From the NCBI GenBank assembly GCA_014382535.1, contig JACNJN010000028.1:1-40394 (forward strand): a stretch of DNA of 40,394 bases, given 5' to 3'. The position numbers were made by a program, and so were the translations under genes. Each line of letters begins with the position of its first letter. Position 1 is the stretch's first letter. This document shows, piece by piece, positions 1,453 through 30,165 of this stretch. The notes below the pieces were generated by a model that searched no databases, had not been told where the DNA came from, and was given only the letters and a program-made list of their open reading frames with translations. The DNA comes from Candidatus Desulfolinea nitratireducens (lineage in GTDB: Bacteria > Chloroflexota > Anaerolineae > Anaerolineales > Villigracilaceae).

Positions 1453-4400
1453 ATGACCGATTTTCTTTTCCGCGGCTCATTGGCCGACCTCGACCCGGAC
1501 GTTCACCAACTGACCGAGATCGAAGCCGAACGCCAGGTCCGCAAGCTGATCATGATCGCTTCTGAAAGCCAGGCCCCACTTGCTGTGCGCGAGGCCCTGG
1601 GATCCTCTTTCCATAATGTATACGCGGAAGGCTATCCCGACGAGGATACGCGCCAGATGACTGAGGGTGAAATTTTTGATTACCCAGCACGCCTGGGACA
1701 TTACCGCCGTTATTCTGACCCGCGCTATTATAAGGGTGTCGAATATGCCGATACGATCGAGGCCCTTGCCCGACGACGGGCCGCCGAGGTTTTCGCCGCA
1801 AACGGGGTCACTGCCGACGAGATCTTCGTCAACGTGCAGGCGCTTTCAGGTGGCCCCGCCAATAACGCTGTTTACCATGCGCTGGTCAAACCCGGCGATA
1901 CCGTGATGGGCATGGATCTGCTGCATGGCGGGCATCTCTCGCATGGTTCACATGTCAATCGCTCCGGGAAATACTACAATATCATCAGTTACGGGATCGA
2001 TGCTGAGACCGAGAAGATCGACTACGATGTCGTCCGTGAATTGGCGCTTGAGCATAAACCAAAGATGATCATCGCTGGTTTCTCCTCCTATTCATGGGTG
2101 CCTGACTGGAAGAAATTCCGTGCGATCGCGGATGAGGTCGGCGCTTATCTGCTGACCGACATTTCCCATATCGGTGGCCTGACAGCGGCCGGGGTTGTCC
2201 CTTCACCGATCGGTATCGCGGATGTGGTGATGACGACCACGCATAAATCCCTGCATGGCCCTCGTGGCGCAATCCTGATGACCACCAGCCCAAAAATCTC
2301 GAGCGCCATCGACCGGGCCGTTTTCCCCGGCGAGCAGGGCGGACCCCATATCAATGTTTTTGCGGGACTTGCCACGGCTTTCAAAGTTGCCAAAACAGAG
2401 CAATATAAAAAACTCCAGCAATTGACGATCGACAACGCCATAGCGATGGTGGATCAATTCCAGAAACGCGGATTGAAGGTGCCTTTTGGTGGCACAGATT
2501 GCCATCTGATCAATCTTGATTGCACCACCATCAAAGGACCCGATGGGGCAACGCTGAGCGGTGATATGGCCTCCCGTATTCTTGATATTGCCGGATTGGT
2601 CGTCAACCGGAATACCATTCCCGGTGATACATCGGCGCTGGCACCCTCCGGGATTCGTCTCGGTACGCCCTGGATCACGCAGCGTGGTTTTGATGAGGCC
2701 AAATCCCGGGAATTGGCTGATGTCATCGCCGATGTACTGCTCGGCTGCCAACCCTATTTCATGGATGTGCCCAAGAAGCGCAAACCGCAACGCCGCGCGA
2801 ATATCGATTTTGAATTGTTAAATGATGCCAAACTGCGCATCCGCAAATTGGCCCTTGCAGCAGGGATGGATTTTGAGCCGATCGACAGTGGCTATCCCCA
2901 CTTTTATTATATTGATGATAAGGCCAAGGCCAAAGATGGCTGGGCTGTATATGACCTGAAAGGCAGACAGGTCCGGCAGGCACTGGATTATGCCCTCGGT
3001 GCTGATTTTTCCTCCCTGCGTAATAAAAAGAGTGCGCCGACCATCCTCCACACCCCGAATGGGATCGTAAAGGGAACCCTGACCCGGGTCACGAGCGAAT
3101 CGTACCGTCTGAGCGTCCCGGAAGAAGAGGCCACCCTTGTTGCCACCTGGCTGCGGGATCTCTCGGATGGCTATGTCTCCCTGAATATCAGCAAAGACGG
3201 AAATTTCACCCCCAGCCGTGTGCCCGGGCCCTTCGTTGTGGCCGAATCGGATGCCAAGCCTGTAAAATGGAAGAAAGGCAGCAAAGAGATCGACAAGCCC
3301 TTCTTCCTCGGCATTAACCAGCTTGATGCAAAAACCCGCGAGGCGCTTCCCGATTTCAAATGGGAGGAACCCGCTGATCCGCCCCTCCAGCGCACCCCGA
3401 TTTACGATGCACATAAGGAGCTGGGCGGCAAATTGATCCCCTTTGCAGGCTGGGAAATGCCGGTCTGGTATTCGAGCGTGGTGGAAGAGCATCATGCCAC
3501 CCGTCAGGCTGCCGGTCTTTTCGACGTGGCCCATATGGGTGTTTACGATGTCCGCGGCGAAGATGCGGCCTCCTTCCTGGATACGGTCTGCGCCAACGAT
3601 GTCGGCGGGCTTGCTCCCGGCAATTCGCTCTATTCTCATTTCCTGACCCCTGATGCCGAAGTGATCGACGATACCCTGATCTACAGACGCGGCTGGGATG
3701 ATTATCTCGTGGTGGTGAATGCCTCCAATGATGATAAGGATTGCACCTGGCTGGAATCTGTCCGGGATGGGAAGGTCAAGATCGATAATGCCTATCCCTG
3801 GGTGCGGACCTTTGGGTATAACGCCGAGATCCGCAACCTGCGCGATCCCAAAGCTGGTTCCGCCATGCGGGTGGATATTGCCCTTCAGGGCCCCCGCTCG
3901 CGCGAGATCCTGCTCGCGATGGGCGTCGATGACGATACCCGCGCGAATATCATGAATCTCAAACGGACACAGCTCTGCGACGCAGTCGTCGGTCCTTCGA
4001 CCCCCTCACGGGGACAGGCAGGCTCAGGAGAGCCATTCGACCTGATCGTCTCCCGCACCGGCTATACCGGCGAAGCAATGGCTTTTGAACTCTTCGTACA
4101 TCCCGACCGTGCGGCTGAATTCTGGAACGCTGTCCTGAAAGCTGGCGCGCCATTCGGCGTCAAACCGATCGGTTTGGGCGCCCGCGATAGCCTGCGGACC
4201 GAATTTGGTCTGCCGCTTTACGGTCACGAAATGGGACTTGGTTCTGGTCAACTGGGCCAGCCCGATCTGGGCGTCGCCGAAGGCGGATTTGGCTCCTACG
4301 TCAAGACCTATAAACCCTATTTCATCGGACGCGAGGCCTATCTCGCCAATGAGAAAGAACGAAAGGGCGTTGTGGCGAGATTCACCTTCACCGAGAAGGG

Positions 4401-4665
4401 TGTTCGGATGGCCCATAACGGCGATCCCGTCCTGGATAAACGTGGCAAGGTCATCGGTTGGGTGACCTCCTGCGCCGTCGATGCGCAGGGCTACTTAACC
4501 GGCCAGGCCTATCTGCCGCTCAAATTTGCGGAGAAGGATACCCCGATCTTTATTTACCAGAGCGCGCCAAAGAAGGCCAGCCCGATTCCCGCCGAGATGA
4601 AAACCGGTGATAAGGCCACCCTTCCGAACGCGGCGGTGGTGGTTTCTAGATTTGCTAAACTATAA
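1453..4665 (+). CDS. glyA-gcvT: Fused serine hydroxymethyltransferase / glycine cleavage T protein
   Basis: A 1070-residue protein joins two one-carbon enzymes. Residues ~10-465 are a PLP-dependent serine hydroxymethyltransferase (serine + tetrahydrofolate to glycine + methylene-tetrahydrofolate), with the Schiff-base lysine K265 in TTTHKSLHGPRGA. Residues ~645-1070 are the aminomethyltransferase of the glycine cleavage system, starting near PIYDAHKELGGKLIPFAGWE. Between them, residues ~465-640 form a segment I do not recognise (GIVKGTLTRVTSESYRLSVP and nearby). Each part is close to the normal length of its stand-alone family, so this is a true fusion with no frameshift. A strong promoter and a ribosome site (ACGGAG) support the start. 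Both halves use methylene-tetrahydrofolate and glycine, so the fusion may couple serine-glycine interconversion to glycine cleavage. The P, H and L proteins are not in this window. Confidence 0.93.
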   Translation: MTDFLFRGSLADLDPDVHQLTEIEAERQVRKLIMIASESQAPLAVREALGSSFHNVYAEGYPDEDTRQMTEGEIFDYPARLGHYRRYSDPRYYKGVEYADTIEALARRRAAEVFAANGVTADEIFVNVQALSGGPANNAVYHALVKPGDTVMGMDLLHGGHLSHGSHVNRSGKYYNIISYGIDAETEKIDYDVVRELALEHKPKMIIAGFSSYSWVPDWKKFRAIADEVGAYLLTDISHIGGLTAAGVVPSPIGIADVVMTTTHKSLHGPRGAILMTTSPKISSAIDRAVFPGEQGGPHINVFAGLATAFKVAKTEQYKKLQQLTIDNAIAMVDQFQKRGLKVPFGGTDCHLINLDCTTIKGPDGATLSGDMASRILDIAGLVVNRNTIPGDTSALAPSGIRLGTPWITQRGFDEAKSRELADVIADVLLGCQPYFMDVPKKRKPQRRANIDFELLNDAKLRIRKLALAAGMDFEPIDSGYPHFYYIDDKAKAKDGWAVYDLKGRQVRQALDYALGADFSSLRNKKSAPTILHTPNGIVKGTLTRVTSESYRLSVPEEEATLVATWLRDLSDGYVSLNISKDGNFTPSRVPGPFVVAESDAKPVKWKKGSKEIDKPFFLGINQLDAKTREALPDFKWEEPADPPLQRTPIYDAHKELGGKLIPFAGWEMPVWYSSVVEEHHATRQAAGLFDVAHMGVYDVRGEDAASFLDTVCANDVGGLAPGNSLYSHFLTPDAEVIDDTLIYRRGWDDYLVVVNASNDDKDCTWLESVRDGKVKIDNAYPWVRTFGYNAEIRNLRDPKAGSAMRVDIALQGPRSREILLAMGVDDDTRANIMNLKRTQLCDAVVGPSTPSRGQAGSGEPFDLIVSRTGYTGEAMAFELFVHPDRAAEFWNAVLKAGAPFGVKPIGLGARDSLRTEFGLPLYGHEMGLGSGQLGQPDLGVAEGGFGSYVKTYKPYFIGREAYLANEKERKGVVARFTFTEKGVRMAHNGDPVLDKRGKVIGWVTSCAVDAQGYLTGQAYLPLKFAEKDTPIFIYQSAPKKASPIPAEMKTGDKATLPNAAVVVSRFAKL

Positions 4666-26418: not shown

Positions 26419-27564
26419 TTATTCCCTGGTTAGCACATGTGTGACCGCAGTAGCTGCTGGCCCGCCCAACGATTGGATCAGGGCGACTTCGTCCGTCCTG
26501 TTCTCGGCCCTGAGCCTGCTGGCTGCTTCGACAGCCTGGTAGACACCCGTAGCACCGCCAGGGAAACCACGCGCCTTCAAGCCACCACTGGTGGCGCAAG
26601 GAATTGATCCATTTAGTGCGATCTCGCCATCGCGGGCCAACTCCCAGCCTTTGCCACGTTCGGCAAATCCAGCCGCTTCTAATGAAAGGGCGGCGTAGAT
26701 CGAGTAGGCATCGTGATATTCAAAGAAGCTGATCTGTTCGCGAGTCACGTCTGCCTTTTGGAGCGCTGCTTCAACGGAACGTTTCGCTGCGTCAAAGCTT
26801 AGCGGATCACGCCTGTCGTGCAGGCTCAGCATTCCTGAAGAGGAAGCAGACCCGGAGATCCGGACGAGCGGATGATGAGAATTAGCAGGCAAAAGTTTGG
26901 AGCGAGTCAAAATGATCGCGGCTGCGCCATCCGCTGTAGGCGCGGCATCAAATATATTTAGCGGTTCGCTGATCATACCCGCGCGCGCGTAGGTCTCGGC
27001 CTTGATCGCACGTTGGAACATGGCGTTGGGATTGGATACCGCGTTGGCGTGGGCCGTGACGGGAAATCCGGCCAATCCATCTGCGGGGACATCAAACTCG
27101 TGCAGGTAGCGGCGCATGAGTATGGCGGCCTGCGAGGTGGGGGTGAGCCCCTGCACGGCTTCAAAATCGCTATCTGTGGCGGTGGCAAGGGCATCTTCTA
27201 CGCCTGCGTCAACCATGTCTGTAAATTTTTCGACGCCAACGACGAGGGCTACATCTACCATGCCGCTTTTTACGGCCAGATAGCCCTGACGGAGCGCAGC
27301 GCCGCCGGAGGCTCCAGCTGCTTCGATGCTGACCGCTTCGATACCGATCAACCCGCTAAAATCGGCAATTAGCGCGCCGAGGTGGGCTTGTTTGGAGAGG
27401 TTGGGAGCGAGCATATTGCCGACAAAAAGCGCCTGGGGGCGCAACCCGCCCGCGTCTTTGATCGCGGCTTCGAGGGCGAAATGGGCCAGCTCGCGAATTG
27501 AAAATTCCCAATGCTCGCCGACGGCGGTCTGACCGATGCCGGCGATTACGATTGATTCTGTCAT
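26419..27564 (-). CDS. Thiolase-fold protein lacking the nucleophilic cysteine
   Basis: A 381-residue member of the SCP2/archaeal thiolase group, third in a unit with HMG-CoA reductase and synthase. In active thiolases the nucleophile lies in a C-A-S-G motif. Here the segment is EAAGASGGAALR, with Gly at residue 84, encoded GGA and two changes away from any Cys codon. The C-terminal GHPxGATG His is Phe (GFPGGATG, F334). The HD motif (FEYHDAYSIY) is kept. Overall length and fold are normal. By position it should supply acetoacetyl-CoA, but without these residues it may be a non-catalytic partner of the synthase or have another role. No DUF35 gene, the usual bridge in archaeal complexes, is present nearby. 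Confidence 0.8.
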   Translation of the reverse strand: MTESIVIAGIGQTAVGEHWEFSIRELAHFALEAAIKDAGGLRPQALFVGNMLAPNLSKQAHLGALIADFSGLIGIEAVSIEAAGASGGAALRQGYLAVKSGMVDVALVVGVEKFTDMVDAGVEDALATATDSDFEAVQGLTPTSQAAILMRRYLHEFDVPADGLAGFPVTAHANAVSNPNAMFQRAIKAETYARAGMISEPLNIFDAAPTADGAAAIILTRSKLLPANSHHPLVRISGSASSSGMLSLHDRRDPLSFDAAKRSVEAALQKADVTREQISFFEYHDAYSIYAALSLEAAGFAERGKGWELARDGEIALNGSIPCATSGGLKARGFPGGATGVYQAVEAASRLRAENRTDEVALIQSLGGPAATAVTHVLTRE

Positions 27565-27668
27565 AAGGGTCTTCCTTCTTTGTGGAGCATTTGAGATGTG
27601 TAGAAAGTGAGGGGATGAGTGAGAAGTGACAAGTGATGAAGGAAAAAAAACTTCTAACTATTCACTTT

Positions 27669-28739
27669 CTATTTGACCGTTATCTTGCCTCGCATCCGCG
27701 CATAGGTTGCATAATCAATTTCTTTGCGACGAGCGATATAGTCCTGGGTTTTCAGCGCAAGGTCTCGGCGCTCGAGCAGCTTGTCCGTGACGGTCAGTGA
27801 GATCGCATCCGAGCCTGCACCTGAACCGAAGGAGGTCATCAGGATACGGTCGCCGGGCCTGGCAATATCGAGCGTTGCGGTCAGGCCGATGATCGCCGCG
27901 CCAGAATAGGTATTGCCGATCATTGGAGATAGCAGGCCCGGCTCGATCTGTTCTTTTGAGAAACCCAGCATTTTCGCAACCCGCATGGGGAATTTGGCAT
28001 TTGGCTGATGGAAGATCGCCCACTGATAATCTTTGGGCGTCGTCCCCATCGCCTCCATCAGGGTGCTGGCGGCCTTGCTGCTATGCTCAAAGTAAGCCGG
28101 TTCTCCGGTAAAACGTGAACCATGTTCAGGATATTTCTGGTCGGCACGCCGCCAGAAGTCGGGGGTATCGGTAACATAGGAATAAGAGGCTTCAACGATG
28201 GCCAAAGACTCTTCCGACGGGCCAACGATAAAAGCCGCCCCGCCCGCAGCAGCGGTATATTCGAGTGCGCTCCCGGGCTTGCCCTGCGCGGTATCCATAC
28301 CGATAGCCATGGCATAATCCGCCATCTCTGAGCCGACAAATCCCATCGCGGCGACAAAGGCTTCCGTCCCCGCTTTGCAGGCGAATTCCCAGTCACCAGC
28401 CTGGACGTGGGGGACTGCGCCGATGGCTTCCGCAACGATCGTGGAAGTGGGCTTGACCGCGTATGGATGAGATTCAGAGCCGACCCAAACAGCGCGTAAC
28501 TGGTGGGCATGAATCCCGGCGCGTTTGATCGCATTCCGGGCGGCTTCGATGGACATGGTGGCCACATCCTCATCGAGACCGGGGACGCTCTTTTCTTTGA
28601 TCGGTACACCGCCCTTGCTACCCTTCCAGACGCGGAGGATCTCCGTCGCGGGGAGGCGGTAACGGGGCACATATGCGCCGTAGCCAATGATCCCGACCGG
28701 GCGGGAGGGTTTGAGTAAAAGATTTTTCTTTTCAGTCAT
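27669..28739 (-). CDS. HMG-CoA synthase, archaeal type
   Basis: A 356-residue enzyme that condenses acetyl-CoA with acetoacetyl-CoA to HMG-CoA, the committed entry to mevalonate. It has the nucleophile C121 ([13 protein letters not shown]), the general acid/base region [16 protein letters not shown]244 in [10 protein letters not shown], and the C-terminal SFGSGAGSD. Length and motifs fit the archaeal family rather than the bacterial/eukaryotic one. It lies between HMG-CoA reductase (49 bases upstream) and the thiolase-like gene (104 bases downstream), all on the minus strand. The upper mevalonate route is thus grouped here. Confidence 0.92.
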
Positions 28740-28788
28740 TATTTCTCCGAGTATTGCGTAATTCGAGATTTGATGTTCGATTATTCGA

Positions 28789-30165
28789 TTATCGAATAAT
28801 CGGTTTTTTCTTTTTTAATATTTCTTCCGCCCGATCAATCCGCACCATTTTTTCCGCCACCATCTGTGCGGCGACCTGCTCAACCAGCTCTCCGCTCGCG
28901 CCTGCCGCAATAGCGACCTGTCGCGCATGCAGGGACATATGTCCGCGTTGGATGCCCTCGGTGGCGAGGGCGCGCAGGGCGGCCAGATTTTGCGCCAATC
29001 CTACGGCAACAATAATTTCAGCTAATTCAGATGCTGTATTTACCTTCATCAACTTGAGGGCAATTTGTGCGGTGGGATGCACCCTGGTCGCTCCTCCGAC
29101 GATGCCGACTGCCATCGGCATTTCCAGGGTGCCGACGAGATTGCCATCGCCATCCTGCCCCCAGGTGGAGAGAGATGTATATTTCCCATCTCGGGCGGCA
29201 AAGGCATGTGCGCCTGCTTCGATGGCGCGCCAGTCATTTCCGGTGGCGATGACGACCGCATCCACGCCGTTCATGATGCCTTTGTTGTGCGTTGCGGCAC
29301 GGTAAGGATCGACAGCAGCAAATGCCCAGGCTTCGATGATCCCATCGCGGACCTCTTCGCCGGTGTAGTTTCTTATGCCCTCACCCTCCGCCCTCTCCCG
29401 GGGGGAGAGGGGACTTGTCCCTTCTCCCCTTGGGAGAAGGTTAGGATGAGGGGATGTCTCAAATGCCAACTCATCCACAGGAATAGTACATTTTACTTTT
29501 GCAAGACGCCTGTCAGAGAGATTCGAAAGAATACGAAGATGAACACGTCCGCCAGTGAGTTCTTCGAGACGCGGCGCAAGTTTTTCGCAAGCGGTGTTTA
29601 CGGCGTTGGCACCCATCGCATCACGGACATCGTAAATCAGATGAAGAACAAGAAATGCACCAATGGGGGAATCCTCGATCACGCGGATTTCCAGGTCCCG
29701 TGCGCCGCCGCCGAGTTCTTTCAGGATGGGATCAATTTGGTCTGCTTGGGCAAGTAGAGATCCGCGCTCTCCCTCGATTGCCATGATCGCGGCGGGGATG
29801 TCGTCCACATCGAGGATTTGGATCTGGCCGATCATCTCCGGGGCAGAGGAAGTTGCATGAAATCCGCCGCCTGTGCGGGCCAACTTTGCCATAAAGGAGG
29901 CACCCGCCACAACCGAAGGCTCTTCGATCACCATCGGGATCAACCTGTCGATGCCGTTGATGGTAAAGTTCAGGCCGATGCCGAGGGGTAGATTATGCGT
30001 GGCAACCACGTTTTCGACCATCAGGTCAGCTTCTTGCGTGGTCAGCAAGCCCGAGGTAAGGAGCGGGGTCAGCAAATCCAAATCCATACCTGCGGCTTTG
30101 GCAAGGGCGTCCAGTTTTTGATCTAAAGAGAGTTTGTAAAATCCGGGTATACGAGAATTGGTCAT
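28789..30165 (-). CDS. mvaA: HMG-CoA reductase, class II, with an in-frame repeat insertion
   Basis: A 458-residue enzyme reducing HMG-CoA to mevalonate (or the reverse). I start at 30165 ([19 protein letters not shown]); upstream in-frame codons lie in the intergenic region. Catalytic residues are visible: Glu in EEPSVVAG (81/82), K295 in [11 protein letters not shown]311 in ATGNDWRA and H409 in RGHMSLHA. In the Pseudomonas mevalonii enzyme these are E83, K267, D283 and H381, so the last three are shifted by +28. The extra residues are a palindromic DNA repeat translated in frame (about residues 237-265, [12 protein letters not shown]...). All catalytic motifs are intact, so the enzyme is probably active. 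It heads the minus-strand unit. Confidence 0.92.
29378..29456. repeat. Palindromic repeat inside the HMG-CoA reductase gene
   Basis: The segment runs from CCCTCACCC to GGATGAGGGG and contains CCCTCTCCC/GGGAGAGGG and CTTCTCCCC/GGGAGAAGG hairpins. On the coding strand it is read as PNLLPRGEG...[10 protein letters not shown]. It keeps the reading frame. The reading resembles a dispersed repeat often seen between genes, but no second copy is in this window. Confidence 0.8.

Follow-up and report, generated by a model that had tools for sequence, protein, structure and literature searches.

A BoxC-type palindromic insert translated within HMG-CoA reductase, and in-frame nuclease cassettes of related bacteria that hint at what may spread BoxC repeats

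A 26-residue stretch within a class II HMG-CoA reductase (HMGR) of Candidatus Desulfolinea nitratireducens is probably (at an estimated probability of about 0.6) the short version of a mobile element that inserts in frame and whose long form carries a DUF559 nuclease. The gene lies on contig JACNJN010000028.1, whose 40,394 nucleotides were analyzed as a whole and are called the window below. Judged by its profile matches, the insert is an inverted pair of BoxC/PIT-type palindromic units, and a nuclease bracketed by BoxC units was found in two phyla. The BoxC-bracketed, in-frame nuclease of related bacteria suggests what may spread BoxC repeats.

The host gene of this essential enzyme (28792..30165, minus strand; PF00368, E 1.6e-103) encodes 458 amino acids and is followed by its stop codon at 28789-28791 (minus strand). 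The insert is read in the HMGR frame as residues 238-263 (29377..29454, minus strand), and its arms, 29391-29414 and 29417-29440, form an inverted repeat. Alignment of 29378-29456 with its own reverse complement gave a score of 38, above all 2000 shuffles (maximum 25), and the insert with its edges folded at z -3.9. Within this 79-nt stretch three of the six frames contain a stop codon and HMGR's own frame is open. Together, these results bear out the palindromic repeat in the HMGR frame reported by the first-pass annotation. The same annotation had described a clean insertion, with Lys, Asp, and His shifted by +28 relative to Pseudomonas mevalonii (Pm) HMGR and the Glu unshifted. In the alignment, Lys295 (codon 29281..29283, minus strand; Pm Lys267), Asp311, and His409 (codon 28939..28941, minus strand; Pm His381) were indeed found at +28, but Glu82 paired with Pm Glu83 and is thus displaced by -1; the net insertion relative to the Pm enzyme therefore amounts to 29 residues. 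Lys295 and His409 are catalytic residues. Comparison with insert-free reductases of the same genus (F-DD-Y) likewise gave a net gain of 29 residues, 26 of them palindromic, in keeping with a clean in-frame insertion. In an AlphaFold2 model (31 alignment rows; mean pLDDT 85.7), residues 242-250 and 256-262 scored below 50, and the insert is predicted to form a disordered loop.

BoxC/PIT repeats, a widespread bacterial family, have been on record since the 1990s. For their detection, a profile HMM was built on the sequences of seven E. coli BoxC (TMECO) units, taken from a table in PMC4666352 (E. coli-only model), and a mixed half-unit model from these seven and seven units of the source genome. 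The E. coli-only model matched both halves of the insert. Half unit 1 (29378..29411, minus strand; matched by the E. coli-only model at 29378-29412), with the outer-end tag CCCTCACCC and the hairpin CCCTCTCCC/GGGAGAGGG, scored 15.0 bits; with the mixed model it reached 26.9 bits, a value to be read with the fact that the seeds include units of the source genome, one being the window's own. Half unit 2 (29420..29452, plus strand; matched by the E. coli-only model at 29419-29452), inverted relative to unit 1, with the hairpin CCTTCTCCC/GGGAGAAGG and the tag GATGAGGG, scored 21.5 bits (E 5e-4). The three-block BoxC motif CCCTCNCCC / GGGAGAGGG / GGGTGAGGG, described in PMC4666352, was recovered by this model in both halves. 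Another trait of the BoxC/PIT family is an intrastrand triplex formed in vitro. The GTAG/CGTC tag is absent from the insert, which ends in CCCTCA/TGAGGG. In the passages of PMC4666352 on E. coli, BoxC units are described as always intergenic and free of nearby mobility genes, whereas the units studied here lie in frame inside HMGR and other genes and elsewhere bracket DUF559. We regard this as a difference of context, not of sequence family.

Further copies were found both within and between genes, so the repeat is not unique in the source genome (G000, 3.65 Mb). There, it occupies 17 places at E ≤2e-4, counting the window's copy; the search returned 26 rows in all, of which the nine with weaker matches (E at or above 0.016) were left out. 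At eight of the 17, the repeat is read in frame within seven Pfam-supported genes, namely HMGR, Maf, a radical SAM protein (YgiQ-like), MutY, ArgH, PyrF, and MetH. Two of these eight belong to MetH, where they flank a DUF559 domain. A ninth in-frame place lies in a membrane-protein ORF identified without a Pfam check, and the other eight are intergenic, close to the start of an ORF, next to a DUF559 gene, or of unresolved position. The cassette with the window's repeat family resides in MetH in this genome, not in HMGR.

Palindromes translated inside proteins are described for Rickettsia in parts of PMC10969869 and for REPs in parts of PMC3733652. The likeness to the Rickettsia elements proposed in the first-pass annotation was corroborated as one of behavior: in both cases, a multi-copy palindrome is read in frame as a tolerated stretch in several unrelated, conserved genes of one genome. 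Membership in that group is not claimed. As a description, the Rickettsia-like reading held for the in-frame, multi-copy palindrome but proved too narrow, as both halves match the E. coli-only BoxC model. Furthermore, the present case differs from the Rickettsia elements in having several palindrome families at one site and a nuclease-bearing long form.

HMGR was detected in 97 of 100 genomes of the family, and the insertion site could be parsed in 44 of 61 loci (L027-L087, some being near-copies of one another). Fewer than eight residues were present at 16 of the 44 sites, short inserts at 26, and long inserts at two. Eighteen of the 26 short inserts fold better than shuffled sequences at z ≤-2, and eight do not. 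The first-pass annotation had considered that an unrelated segment of the same length in close relatives would speak against an inserted repeat. Other segments do occur there, but their lengths differ and the short ones are mostly palindromes as well; the site is therefore a hotspot rather than a counter-example. The palindrome type varies from BoxC in the source genome to a related GC-rich type in G085, VGQVSNLPNGQIGNLSY in G031, and GTAG-tagged palindromes in G006, G035, G056, and others (for example, GTAGGACAAAATGGCATTTTGTCATAC). The frame is kept and no stop codon occurs in the 28 HMGR inserts of at least eight residues and the MetH linkers inspected. Similarly, PyrF, Maf, ArgH, and the MetH linker vary among relatives, with and without palindromes. 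When 12 such inserts were jointly searched against 11 genomes, several had more copies in their own genome, among them many of the TSEV type in G087 and several of the GTAG type in G006; the inserts of G031, G035, G058, G079, and G085 were found only at their source place among the matches listed. Palindrome-bearing HMGR also occurs in the named public records L057, L058, and L059, which may duplicate some of the G genomes. As a separate observation, the MetH linker of G033 (L202) contains a palindrome-coded peptide of the ALTPNPSPAGRGEQ type about four times, a local amplification.

The long form was encountered in relatives. In HMGR of G050 and G090, a DUF559 domain (PF04480, E 1.5e-33 and 1.6e-32, respectively) with palindromes before and after it is read in a single open frame, at the same site as the window insert. 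The earlier notion of an insertion element at this site holds for the palindrome, and the nuclease between palindromes in these two relatives lay beyond it. A DUF559 cassette was also found in the MetH linker of 15 of 100 family genomes (in G048, the contig ends in the right flank), the MetH query, which included DUF559, having matched 99 of the 100. In both HMGR and MetH, short and long forms are found at the same permissive places. By the E. coli-only model, all 15 MetH cassettes are flanked left and right by BoxC units of at least 12 bits; among 17 DUF559 hosts other than MetH, three reach 12 bits on any side and none on both, and the palindromes around the HMGR and helicase cassettes match weakly (9-10 bits). 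Other hosts are a UvrD-type helicase ORF (G023) and DNA methylases of the Eco57I, ISP, DUF1156, and N6_N4 types; of the 12 long-ORF loci fetched, L428 and L434 were left unparsed by pattern. No target-site duplication was seen by eye between empty and filled HMGR sites, and a plasmid search for recent moves yielded 43 records, all below 60% identity. Two side observations concern the hosts: the position of the DUF559 cassette in DUF1156 methylases (L437, L438, L439) varies between genomes, with two sites in use, and G099 has two MetH genes (L194, L295), one with a DUF559 cassette and the other with a short insert of palindrome type in the corresponding position.

The association of BoxC with DUF559 extends to Proteobacteria. 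Set 1 comprised 22 loci, 19 of them full-length; with the mixed model, 11 of the 19 had a BoxC unit no more than 320 bp from DUF559. After weak DUF559 matches were set aside, 11 of 16 had a unit near and 7 of 16 had units on both sides. For set 2, fetched after the model had been made and consisting of the best locus of each genome as returned, without random draw, the values were 12 of 20 and 9 of 20. The E. coli-only model gave 10/16 and 11/20 near and 5/16 and 7/20 on both sides for sets 1 and 2, respectively. Equal windows 1160-1500 bp from the Proteobacterial DUF559 genes contained no BoxC unit (0/36), in a near/far comparison that separates intergenic from genic sequence incompletely. 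The units are mostly inverted about the gene: the nearest unit on the left was in plus orientation 15 times and in minus four times, and on the right twice and 18 times, with 0/720 in shuffled loci. As background, four hits of at least 12 bits occurred in 338,712 bases (49 HMGR loci of other taxa). In the Anaerolineae family itself, one of 24 full-length non-embedded DUF559 loci was bracketed (E. coli-only model), and among the DUF559 loci of the genus 1/10 full-length loci was positive at 12 bits. A full-length repeat model applied to whole loci gave 8/15 for DUF559 loci of the genus, 2/27 for those of the family, 1/9 for Y1 loci, and 1/31 and 0/49 for HMGR loci; as it proved blunt, the half-unit model took its place. 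In E. coli K-12 (record L396:1587-2142), the DUF559 gene ycjD shares its 3' end with a BoxC unit that overlaps it, and another unit lies about 160 bases further on. A query with the ycjD region, at 80% coverage, found a place in 3332 of 5426 E. coli genomes; the DUF559 control search gave no match in its E. coli genome. The sapF-fabI interval of E. coli was considered as an empty ycjD site and rejected, as an efflux operon is present there in the three ycjD-less genomes that were opened.

The distribution of the MetH cassette at its fixed site is patchy. On a tree of the MetH flanks, inferred by a quick method from 59 of 74 rows (of the 15 missed, four were not MetH, and G032, G048, G004, and G000 were cassette-bearing), explaining the cassette state, present in 11 rows, takes 10 changes (at least seven as judged by starred branches), compared with 10.3 for shuffled labels. 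In the DUF559 tree (90 of 113 rows, 23 missed), the details of which are soft because the columns are few (119), the MetH, HMGR, and helicase cassettes form one group (SH-aLRT 91) that has two Eco57I-type cassettes and three Proteobacterial copies close to it and stands apart from most of the free-standing Anaerolineae copies. Within this group, the helicase copy, which comes from another species, is the sister of the HMGR copies (99), and MetH of G000/G050 joins them next (87). On this phylogeny, the HMGR, helicase, and MetH cassettes appear to be one lineage in unrelated host genes. The embedded copies of G022 and G021 group with free-standing ones, from which we conclude that embedding arose more than once; a single clade of all MetH copies was not rejected (p 0.739). 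Purifying selection on the embedded nuclease was evident from pN/pS values of 0.07-0.27 (six pairs), next to 0.01-0.13 for the host parts (five pairs), with synonymous sites partly saturated. The MetH cassette thus combines a conserved nuclease with a patchy occurrence at a fixed site, as homing elements do.

These observations can be combined into a model. The window insert would be a short, non-autonomous BoxC-type element whose two inverted palindromic units are translated as a loop, and the long form would be a cassette in which a DUF559 (YcjD/Vsr-type PD-(D/E)XK) nuclease is bracketed by BoxC-type units. The nuclease would cut or nick the target DNA, and the palindrome-bounded element would be copied in during repair, through homing or a transposition akin to it. 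Copies that break the reading frame or fall within ordered protein regions would be lost, and those in a tolerated disordered loop kept. Recombination or deletion between the bracketing units could then leave short forms, such as the window copy. More tentatively, and at somewhat less than even odds in our estimate, a DUF559 nuclease with inverted BoxC-type ends, in no need of an intron or intein, inserts itself into permissive loops and linkers of conserved proteins, persists as a domain translated with its host, and sheds short palindromes as in HMGR; in that case, the mobility enzyme so far missing for BoxC/PIT would be DUF559/YcjD, in E. coli too. Several of the above results weigh against the model: the lack of a visible target-site duplication, the rarity of bracketing around non-embedded DUF559 loci of the family and genus, the weak BoxC matches around the HMGR and helicase cassettes, the repeated origin of embedding, the efflux operon in place of a clean empty ycjD site, and the location of the source genome's own cassette in MetH. 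In addition, the other palindrome families at the HMGR and MetH sites, GTAG among them, need not be mobilised by DUF559.

Alternatively, Y1/RAYT transposases might move all of the palindromes, as proposed for GTAG REPs, with DUF559 as an unrelated neighbor. The source genome has nine Y1_Tnp matches (eight over cut-off), and several HMGR inserts of other genera bear GTAG ends; RAYT/GTAG REP biology is treated in sections of PMC3733652. The window insert has no such ends, however, and BoxC units are rare near Y1_Tnp: none lay close to the Y1_Tnp loci examined in the source genome (0/5 full-length) or in five of the same Proteobacterial genomes (0/10), and the full-length model gave one weak hit, about 1 kb away, among the nine loci of the source genome. 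We therefore consider a general role of Y1/RAYT improbable. A second possibility dispenses with a mobile enzyme altogether, the palindromes arising in loops by replication slippage, template switching, or recombination and persisting because they are harmless, and BoxC gathering passively by DUF559 in loose intergenic DNA. The many palindrome families in the same loops, the unit amplification in G033 MetH, and the partial mixing of intergenic and genic sequence in the near/far control all fit such an origin. It accounts poorly for repeat copies that are similar yet dispersed across the source genome, for units on both sides of DUF559 with a preferred inverted orientation, and for related cassettes in unrelated genes, and it appears unlikely to us.

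Removal of the insert from RNA or protein, as an intron, a bypass, or an intein, would leave the enzyme unchanged. In favor of removal, hairpins at coding insertions resemble translational bypass elements, and DUF559 within apparent inteins does occur in this phylum: the domain is found inside methylase genes of G506, G244, and G253 (L430, L431, L432) that match an intein C-terminal splicing region above the cut-off, at the position expected of a homing nuclease. Against it, intein models detected no intein (Hint) splicing blocks in the cassette proteins of HMGR and MetH, and the inserts keep frame and sense, which removal would not demand; removal was set aside on these grounds as very unlikely. 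An assembly artefact hardly merits belief. The source genome is fragmented into 223 contigs, as expected of a metagenome bin, but palindrome-bearing HMGR is present in the above-mentioned public records, with the possible overlap noted there, and MetH cassettes occur in 15 genomes.

The preferred reading, an in-frame element with a nuclease-bearing long form, shares traits with two further known systems. Intragenic in-frame REPs, including a recB position that roughly coincides for different REPs, are covered in portions of PMC3733652, as are GTAG/CGTC REPs and REPtrons, in which an enzyme gene is likewise flanked by repeats; here, the partner is DUF559 instead of a Y1 transposase and the whole cassette is in the host frame. 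In homing-endonuclease inteins, a homing-type nuclease also sits in frame in conserved proteins with a patchy distribution on the host tree, whereas the present cassette has no splicing domain, is bracketed by palindromes, and is expected to remain a fusion. Homing elements are further characterized by cleavage of the uninterrupted allele. A DUF559 gene has been assigned to the EDxHD homing endonucleases (excerpts of PMC9403480, citing Taylor 2011), and kinship of DUF559 to Vsr is stated in parts of PMC1189080 (as YcjD) and PMC12907096. We found no report of a BoxC-DUF559 link or of splicing-free in-frame nuclease cassettes in the open-access literature searched. Linking BoxC/PIT to a small nuclease family offers a testable mechanism. 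Nuclease domains that reside without splicing in enzymes such as HMG-CoA reductase and methionine synthase would add to the known lifestyles of selfish DNA in conserved genes, and such cassettes would supply new protein loops and domains.

Some further features of the window were observed. The 3' end of the HMGR gene (..PIIR-stop) enters a second, unrelated AT-rich palindrome, CGATTATTCGAT..ATCGAATAATCG (28778-28802, by eye). Thiolase and ketoacyl-synthase-III-type genes lie just downstream on the same strand (26419-28739), the latter with a weak HMG-CoA synthase match under cut-off, and together with HMGR they possibly form a mevalonate-type cluster. Finally, a single ORF at 1453-4665 is a fusion of serine hydroxymethyltransferase (PF00464) and the aminomethyltransferase folate-binding domain (PF01571).
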